A stretch of 64,000 bases of DNA from Utricularia gibba (taxonomy: Eukaryota; Streptophyta; Magnoliopsida; Lamiales; Lentibulariaceae). This document shows, piece by piece, positions 30,154 to 47,433 of the stretch. The stretch's first letter is position 1. Every line of letters starts with the position of its first letter. The position numbers were made by a program, and so were the translations under genes. The notes beneath the pieces were generated by a model. That model ran no database searches. It worked only from the letters and a program-made list of their open reading frames with translations, and had not been told where the DNA came from. The DNA is taken from positions 2,108,001 through 2,172,000 of the forward strand of contig NEEC01000013.1 of NCBI GenBank assembly GCA_002189035.1, read 5' to 3'.

Positions 30154-31335
<1,182 letters not shown>

Positions 31336-32227: not shown

Positions 32228-33473
<1,246 letters not shown>

Positions 33474-35380: not shown

Positions 35381-36582
<1,202 letters not shown>

Positions 36583-38791
36583 GCTGCTCTGTTTCAACTC
36601 TTGCCTGATCCATTTCTGGGTGCATGAAGGAAGTTAAATACATGCACGGACATGCCGTACAGGAGGGAGCACCACCCCAACTTAACCTAAACCCCCCGGC
36701 TCACAGCAGAAATAATGTTTTATTCCGGGAATAACCAAGATAACTTATCCAGGCCGAAATTACTGTTATAACCTCATGTTGGACGGAGAAGCAGGGGTAA
36801 AAATGCAAAAATACAAATTAAGATATTCAGGGCCACAAAAACAGCTGACTTTAGGTATATTAAAAATATCTTTTAATAAATGGTTTGTATTTTATTTAGA
36901 GGTACTTTAATTTTAAATACCTTTCAAAAATACTTCTTAAGATGCGGTCAAATCTCCATAAACTCCCTGGGACATGCCACACCACTAGATCAAATTATCC
37001 CAATAAATGGGGCTTCTATTATTTTCATAAGTTTTTAAATATATTTGGTTTAATTTTTTAAAATTCTAATTTTTAACTGTTTTATAGTATAATCAGAAAT
37101 TCATATTTTATGATTAAAGTCATAAATTATTGAATTTATAGTATTCACATTTTATTTATTATTAAAAAAATTATATTATAATATTAGACTAATTTATATA
37201 TTAATTTTTTACTATATAAATATTTATATATTATTTTATTAAATTTTATATTATTATACAAAACAATTTTATAATGTGAAATTGATTCTATTCATATAAT
37301 ATTAAAATTAATTCTATTCTATATAATTTGAAACATAAATTCAAAATACATAATAGATCCATGAATCCCTTGTTTCCAAATTTTCATTAGTTTTCCTTCA
37401 TTAAATCCCCTTGACTGAATGGGATAATGTGATATTAGGTAAACAAAATAATTATAATATTAGGAATATCAAAATTTCAAAATTTTTAAATTGAATAAAA
37501 TTTATAAAGTATTGATATTGAAATTTGATATCCCTAAGATTTATAGTATGTAATGGGGATTTAATTACCTCACACTCATTTGACATCCTTCTCTATTTAC
37601 ACAATAGAATGAAACAACACCAATGGCGCCGGAGCTCCTAATCAACGACTCTCAACTTAATATTCAGGCCCAACAGCACCACCCAACCCAAGATATGGAG
37701 GTGAGCTCAAAAAAAAAAAAAAATTTATCGAAAAATTAAAATAATATAATTAATTATATTAAAAATTATACATTATTAATAATCGATTAAAATTATTTTT
37801 TTAAATATGATTTATATTTATTATGTATTTGAGATTTATAAATACGATTGTCGAATGTTTGAATTATGACATGATTTAAATAGTGAAAAAACAAAAATAT
37901 ACATTAAGATTAAATGATAAAAAATTAGATCGTTTTATAAATTGATCAAATAGTTGCTATTACAAAATTAACTATATCAAGTCCAATTCCACTTCAGAAT
38001 ATGTATTAAAGCAAACAATATAACATCACAAAATTAAGATTATATAGTGAAGTATATAATATGTTATTTATGATTATTAATCAATCAAATCTAATTTTTG
38101 TCGAATTTGTTAACTTTACACACAATTATTAATATAGGATCACAATGGGCGCCGCAGGTGGTTTTGTTTTGTGTTTTTCTAGGAAAGTGCAGTAATGGAA
38201 ATAAAATTTAATTCATGTTGGCTGTGGGATTGGTTGTCAAAGCGGATTTGAACTTGTGTCGCCACCAACCCAAGCCATCAGACGGGAGCATGCTGCTGAC
38301 CGCAAATTCGTTCCCAAACACAAAGTCAAGAGGCGTGTGGCAGCCACACTCCCCGTGAGAATGGGCCATAGATGCGTGTGGGGCCCATGCTTGATTTCTT
38401 GTCTGATTGGGGGCGAATGTTTTTTTCCCGATTTTTCAAAATATACGATTTTTATTTTGTAATATGTGTGTAATTTGTGAAATACGTGTAATTTCTCTAA
38501 TATTTTAGAATTTATTTATTTTTTAAAAATATATATAATAATTATATTTAAATAGAAATTTACAAAACCGTATATTAGATATATGATTAAACTATATTAG
38601 CCGATGCTCCTTAAATGTATTAAAATGCGTGTAAATTTAGTGGTAATTATTTTGTTTTAATTTGATTTTTATAATTGAAATTGAGTGTTGCTTTCATTTA
38701 AGCGGTCATTCATTACCTTAATTTCAGACAGGAAAAGAGCAACAAATGAGAACGCTCCATGTGTAAAAATGGAAACTAAGCGACCATGCCG
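36583..38791. other. AT-rich intergenic between peroxidase 3 and the HD-ZIP IV gene
   Basis: 36830-38140 is extremely AT-rich, with a poly-A tract near 37706. I looked here for a START domain belonging to the neighbouring HD-ZIP gene and saw none. Confidence 0.65.
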
Positions 38792-39502
38792 TCAGGGACG
38801 GTAAGGGGACGGGGTGACCTCGACAACCACCGCCCGGCCAACGTACTTGGCGGCCATCTCCGATATCCGGTTTATCTGCGAACAATTATTTCCCAAGACA
38901 TGTAAAAAAGATGATCGAGCTGGGATCTCAAAACAGGATGATTTTTTTATATTTGCCTCGAGAAGGAGACGGTCATTCTGCATTCTGAGACTGCGTTCCT
39001 CGTCGGACATGTCCGGCACGGCGGCCATGGCGCCACAGACGGGGCACCGAGCGGCGCTAAGGGCTTCTCTGAACAACTTATTTTCTGCCCGAAGCTTCTC
39101 GTTCTCTGCTCGAAGCTGGATGTTGTCTTGCTTTTCATACTTCATCTGAAGACGCACCGTCTTATTTTTCTAATCTTTTTTCAATGCATAGAAACTCATT
39201 TAAAGGAAAAAAAAACCTTCATCTGGGTGCGTTTGTTCTGGAACCAAAACTTGACTTTCAATGGCTCCATGCCAAGCCTCTGGCTAAGCTCCTCTCTCTG
39301 CCTCTTACTGGGATGAGGATAATCCTTGAACACCCTTCATAGATTGTCAATTTAAAAGTTAGGAAAAATGGCATATCAACTAACTGAACTGTTGCATGAT
39401 CTATTACGCCTCCATTTCTTGGATCTGGAGCGGCGTTTGCCGGTGGTAACGGTTGCATCTCTCGGCCTCGCTTCCGCCGTCGCTGTGCTTCTCACGGCCC
39501 AT
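38792..39502 (-). CDS. HD-ZIP class IV protein lacking the START domain
   Basis: Four exons (39502-39408, 39334-39217, 39145-38957, 38875-38792) encode only 161 residues; family members usually have 700-800. [17 protein letters not shown] and [15 protein letters not shown] show an intact homeodomain (about residues 17-75, recognition helix WFQNKR). A leucine zipper follows ([20 protein letters not shown]), with the class IV cysteine motif CPVCG and [13 protein letters not shown] stop comes 12 residues later, where full-length proteins run into START. No START, SAD or C-terminal domain is visible downstream. Intron 3 uses a GC donor in good context (GAG|GCAAAT). It may dimerise with full-length epidermal HD-ZIP IV factors or bind their L1 boxes, modulating them; this is inference. 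Alternatively it is a truncated duplicate. Confidence 0.83.
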
Positions 39503-39991
39503 TTTCTGCGAATGCGGACAAAGTTTCAGTTAATCTGGTACGCCCATGCGACTGAGAATTTGAAATCTACTGTAAGTTTGTAAGCGACTCACCAACCGTG
39601 AAGAGCGAGGGTAAACAGAGGCACCGCAGAGTTAAATATAGTTGCGCACGAGGGAGGATCTGTAAAAATGGTGATTAAATCTGAAGATAGTTATTGGGTC
39701 GGTAAAAGGAAGCAGTAAAAAGGGACACCAGAGTGAGTTTTAATTAATGTTGAAGATTTGATGCTGTTTTTACTGGTGTAACATGATTTTTCTGTCCTTA
39801 ATCCGGGTAAAAGTGGGCATCTGATACCAGATTATTCTGCTTATTTCTGTATAAGTACGTTTAATTCTGCTGATTTGCTGGAGATAGACTCAAAATTCAA
39901 TATAGGAGCAATATGGGAGCACAAAATGCAAGACAAATAAACAACTCAACAAGCAAGCAAAGGCAATGTGTTCAATCTACTTCGTGGAAGT
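39503..39991. other. Intergenic between the HD-ZIP IV gene and peroxidase 4
   Basis: HD-ZIP upstream region and peroxidase 4 3' flank; no gene is seen. Confidence 0.65.

Positions 39992-41192
<1,201 letters not shown>

Positions 41193-44036: not shown

Positions 44037-47433
<3,397 letters not shown>

Follow-up and report, generated by a model that had tools for sequence, protein, structure and literature searches.

Positions 39502-38792 on the minus strand of the window, the whole 64-kb stretch of Utricularia gibba DNA that was analysed, encode a 161-residue class IV homeodomain and zipper-loop-zipper protein in four coding exons, as delineated by spliced alignment. The gene lacks a START domain and lies among class III peroxidase genes close to a GLR3.4-type glutamate receptor. 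The features are listed below in the direction of transcription.

45558..46991, minus strand, N-terminal exon of the GLR3.4-type glutamate receptor (Pfam ANF_receptor), used as synteny anchor
44040..45035, minus strand, ion-channel exon of the GLR3.4-type receptor (Pfam Lig_chan)
39995..41192, minus strand, class III peroxidase gene directly upstream of the START-less gene
39631..39640, minus strand, TATA-box-like TATATTTAAC read from the sequence, probable core promoter
39506..39592, minus strand, probable 5' UTR intron (G/GTGAGT ... TTCGCAG), read from the sequence
39502-39500, minus strand, start ATG in the good context AAAATGGG
39408..39502, minus strand, exon 1 (spliced alignment), 31 residues plus (A), start of the homeodomain
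39217..39334, minus strand, exon 2 (spliced alignment), remaining homeodomain including the 13-residue recognition helix
38957..39145, minus strand, exon 3 (spliced alignment), zipper half 1, CPVCG loop and zipper half 2
38876..38956, minus strand, intron 3 (spliced alignment, read from the sequence), GC-AG, 81 nt, in frame and stop-free
38792..38875, minus strand, exon 4 (spliced alignment, read from the sequence), 27 residues and TGA
38794-38792, minus strand, stop codon TGA, read from the sequence
36640..38791, minus strand, AT-rich spacer (27% GC) at the expected place of START/SAD, without START homology (tblastn, composition)
35387..36582, minus strand, class III peroxidase downstream, 62% identical to the 39995..41192 copy
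32234..33473, minus strand, class III peroxidase of the array, 68% identical to the 39995..41192 copy
30163..31335, minus strand, class III peroxidase of the array, 76% identical to the 39995..41192 copy

The three introns that interrupt the homeodomain and zipper share their positions and phases with those of the ATML1/PDF2-like paralogues of the same genome, the arrangement typical of class IV. Introns 1 and 2 have GT-AG borders; intron 3 (GAG/GCAAAT ... TTCGCAG) opens with a GC donor, whereas the paralogues carry GT. As intron 3 is in frame and free of stops, unspliced RNA would still be readable and give a protein of 188 aa in place of the spliced 161 aa. The probable 5' UTR intron stops 3 nt short of the ATG, and no ATG is found between the TATA-like box and the donor of this intron. 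No stops, frameshifts or broken splice borders occur across the 161 codons.

The homeodomain is recognised by profile search as Pfam PF00046 (61 bits, E 9e-17) and is followed by zipper half 1, the CPVCG loop and zipper half 2, with the leucine pattern of the zipper preserved. A homeodomain of class IV type joined directly to a zipper-loop-zipper with a CxxCG loop is what defines this class. The recognition helix is identical to that of three paralogues (L040, L042 and L043), and 24 of the 28 residues that are invariant in 18 paralogues are retained, including 6/6 in the zipper-loop-zipper; the four that are altered all fall in the homeodomain. The N-terminal extension is only 17 residues long, the basic KKK patch ahead of the homeodomain is missing, and the protein ends 14 residues past the zipper motif AAKYVG.

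The START and SAD regions that lie downstream of the zipper in class IV proteins are absent, which makes the protein a truncated derivative of the class rather than a canonical member. In the ATML1/PDF2-like paralogues the equivalent exon is longer by more than 100 residues and reaches into START; here a spacer of 2.15 kb separates the stop from the next peroxidase downstream. When the downstream frames of eight paralogues were used as tblastn queries, no START or downstream coding remnant was found below E 0.02 in the whole 64-kb window. Every match of a genome-wide START search (100.09 Mb, 516 contigs) could be assigned either to a class III locus (7 loci) or to another class IV locus (18 loci), and no orphan START exon was found elsewhere in the genome. 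Of the class IV homeodomain loci found, this gene alone has no START match; 18/18 of the others have one. The sequence-only reading had placed at 38792-39502 a separate, intact class IV gene with an undamaged homeodomain, zipper-loop-zipper and CPVCG motif, whose protein stops at 161 residues before START, and each of these claims is borne out by the start, stop, domain match, open frame, introns and START searches given above. Its description of the gene as correctly spliced holds for the exon borders and phases, which are those of the paralogues, but not for intron 3, which is GC-AG and not GT-AG.

A transposable element insertion was considered as the cause of the truncation and rejected: the only dispersed repeat downstream (37019-37355) lies ~1.4 kb beyond the stop and thus offers no obvious cause. 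This AT-rich repeat of ~340 bp occurs in at least ~40 copies genome-wide, at roughly 70-78% identity, and has the appearance of a short non-autonomous transposable element.

The closest relatives of the gene are six loci (L039-L044) which we take to be ATML1/PDF2-like, on the basis of their likeness to AtPDF2 and of characteristic sequence features. Over 130 residues of homeodomain and zipper the START-less protein is ~63% identical to most of them and 58% identical to L044 (the comparison with L041 spans 93 columns only), with a near-identical recognition helix. Best matches of 63% identity to class IV paralogues over this length argue that the class IV assignment is not due to chance. Unlike the START-less gene, L039-L044 carry START, and where they are fully modelled GT-AG introns are present at the three common positions. 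In L041 (G000:C4:939300-943600) there is a one-base frame break in the region of the CxxCG loop, at about locus position 1720, with START sequence downstream; the break could be natural or have arisen in the assembly. In a tree of the genome's own class IV genes the START-less gene joins the six with a support of 95/92 and is placed outside them at 72/72. Its terminal branch is 0.60, compared to less than 0.2 for each ATML1/PDF2-like gene since their common node, so that amino-acid change has been several times faster than in these genes and the place in the tree is uncertain. Addition of AtPDF2 (PDB 9lpe) left the branching order of the gene unsettled.

The neighbourhood provides a second line of evidence. 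The receptor is 60% identical to AtGLR3.4 (PDB 7lzh), compared to 48% for the next best in the genome, and is therefore the genome's only GLR3.4-type gene. It lies within 8 kb of the START-less gene, as do peroxidases of the four-gene array, one copy of which stands between receptor and START-less gene. Tandem peroxidases are reported to be enriched in U. gibba (PMC6982007); the third intron of the copy at 30163-31335 has a GC donor in our gene model. The Arabidopsis gene numbers are AT1G05200 for GLR3.4 (PMC3483616), AT1G05230 for the class IV gene HDG2 (PMC6068134; PMC4740955) and AT1G05240, AT1G05250 and AT1G05260/RCI3 for peroxidases (PMC8996529). The START-less gene thus has the location of HDG2 near GLR3.4 and a peroxidase cluster, where the match comprises two gene families, the peroxidases at the level of class III only, and an Arabidopsis order taken from gene numbers rather than from an aligned region. 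For 19 class IV genes and a genome of 100 Mb, we estimate the chance that any one of them would lie this near to the single GLR3.4-type gene at ~0.3%. As the same trio of GLR3.4, HD-ZIP IV gene and peroxidases is present in both genomes, the simplest reading is that of an HDG2 in its ancestral place. Neighbourhood and tree position taken together make the START-less gene most likely the HDG2 orthologue, and the suggestion that it had entered the peroxidase array as an independent insertion is unsupported, because the grouping fits the Arabidopsis gene numbers around HDG2. Besides these neighbours, it has in common with HDG2 the homeodomain, the zipper-loop-zipper with CxxCG and the class IV exon borders; it differs in the absence of START and SAD and in the N-terminal extension of 17 residues. 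A second HDG2 may be present among the six ATML1/PDF2-like genes. A query with a putative HDG2 linker matched 6/6 of them at 52-57%, with no separation.

It is proposed, at a probability of about 0.5, that the gene is a positional orthologue of HDG2 that has been reduced to a homeodomain and zipper-loop-zipper and is predicted to function as a START-less regulator. The sequence-only reading had suggested a comparison of dN/dS with the paralogues, and a codon model fitted to 14 genes with the terminal branch of the START-less gene as foreground indicates purifying selection overall, on a branch that includes the time before truncation. The dN/dS of this branch is 0.03 with a profile upper bound of ~0.11, and neutral evolution along it is rejected (2dlnL 19.9, p 8e-6). 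This signal is provided by the zipper part; for the homeodomain alone a dN/dS of 0.1 could not be told apart from 1, and dS is saturated between the START-less gene and nearly every paralogue. With its introns present, its frame open and a branch dN/dS below ~0.11, pre-truncation time included, the locus does not have the features of a processed pseudogene or a decayed duplicate.

The greater part of the branch may be older than the truncation, in which case the low dN/dS may stem from the constraint on a full-length ancestor, and a recent truncation followed by slow decay is a possible alternative. According to this explanation the START region of the HDG2 orthologue was deleted recently and the remainder is still readable only on account of the short time since then; a submerged plant may have come to do without HDG2 in its stomata and epidermis. 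HDG2 is listed with the genes of stomatal cell fate, and stomatal genes have been lost in aquatic plants, for instance in Zostera (PMC6068134); in U. gibba itself other truncations have been reported, for example in DCL3 and RdDM proteins (PMC8333044; PMC10663240). The long branch and the four altered homeodomain residues are in line with decay, as is the GC donor of intron 3, which may be a weakening and a point against a working gene. The START-less protein differs from L040 at 48 positions, and simulations show that with 25-40 neutral amino-acid changes an open frame and an unchanged helix 3 would persist with a probability of at most 0.003, but with only 10 such changes P is 0.07, so that about ten neutral changes are compatible with the intact frame. 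Against a dying gene stand the 161 undamaged codons, the preservation of the entire zipper pattern and recognition helix, and the absence of any START debris, such as might be expected after a recent deletion or stop. We consider a working START-less regulator somewhat more likely than a dying gene.

Much less probable is a lineage-specific ATML1/PDF2-like duplicate that lost START and by chance lies near peroxidases and a GLR gene, which corresponds to the insertion or decayed duplicate of the sequence-only reading. The long branch and the AU tests leave room for it, since the tests reject placement with neither subgroup of the ATML1/PDF2-like genes (p ~0.27), but the best tree places the gene outside their clade and the match with the Arabidopsis HDG2 neighbourhood would have to be the ~0.3% coincidence. 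Moreover, the flanking spacers match other spacers of the array only in short AT-rich stretches, and with all introns present the gene is no retrocopy. An assembly or annotation artefact, with START exons further downstream or lost in assembly, is very improbable: the assembly is probably PacBio-based and L041 has its apparent one-base break, but a single-base error is unable to remove the entire START/SAD part, the sequence down to the next peroxidase is continuous and without N, and START similarity is missing from every frame of the 64 kb and from orphan exons elsewhere in the genome.

The function proposed for the reduced HDG2 draws on what is known of its full-length relatives. PDF2 and ATML1 form homo- and heterodimers through the zipper, and their turnover and dimer level are set by the lipid-binding START (PMC10126025); in inner cells, the START of ATML1 additionally keeps nuclear localisation in check (PMC7913478). 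The HDG2 orthologue would have lost its START and SAD regions and most of its N-terminal extension and still encode an intact, spliceable 161-residue protein, which is predicted to pair with ATML1/PDF2-like partners and to bind L1-box DNA. The loss of START would mean that its stability and dimer level are no longer set by epidermal lipids, and it could pair or compete with the full-length class IV factors independently of lipids. L1-boxes are not enriched in the window (5 observed, 6 expected) and none is present in the 5' flank of the gene. The fullest version of this model must be regarded as rather doubtful: the plant, submerged and carnivorous, would have lost every full-length HDG2 and would maintain a START-less, lipid-independent form that joins ATML1/PDF2-type factors in pairs on L1-box DNA and so weakens or redirects the control of epidermal genes.

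ZPR proteins consist of little more than a zipper, have no homeodomain and form partners that are unable to bind DNA. The START-less protein resembles these regulators of class III HD-ZIP factors in that it is short, has a class-specific dimerisation zipper and lacks START, but unlike them it has an intact homeodomain and recognition helix. The term microProtein, in the ZPR sense in which it was initially applied to this gene, therefore does not fit, as the DNA-binding domain is present. Another parallel is the truncated ATHB17 expressed in maize, which also has homeodomain and zipper with another part missing; it is a class II protein (HD-ZIP II) and a transgene product, unlike the START-less protein, which is of class IV and has a gene of its own, and the same source mentions microProteins (PMC3988052). 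A narrow phrase search of the literature found no described natural START-less or truncated class IV protein.

START is regarded as the domain that links class IV factors with the epidermis, through lipid-dependent stability and dimerisation. If the protein is long-lived, it provides a natural test of a class IV homeodomain and zipper acting alone, and, if the proposal is true, class IV would have its own equivalent of the short START-less regulators known from class III. It could then be asked whether the loss of lipid control accompanies the changed epidermis of aquatic carnivores, with few or no stomata and many glands. If the gene is merely dying, it is a clean case of HDG2 loss seen part-way.

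L040 and L042 sit in blocks that are homeologous to each other (G000:C414:1355000-1404999 and C3:1675000-1724999; L057-L066), which are long and collinear. No other neighbours are clearly common to the L040/L042 regions and the START-less locus. The peroxidase in these regions was considered as part of the same ancestral block and rejected, as it is of another class (NIFHDCAVESCDASLLL type) and ~30-50% identical over most stretches. In each block this peroxidase, which is presumably PRX42-like, lies ~10-12 kb from the ATML1/PDF2-like gene.
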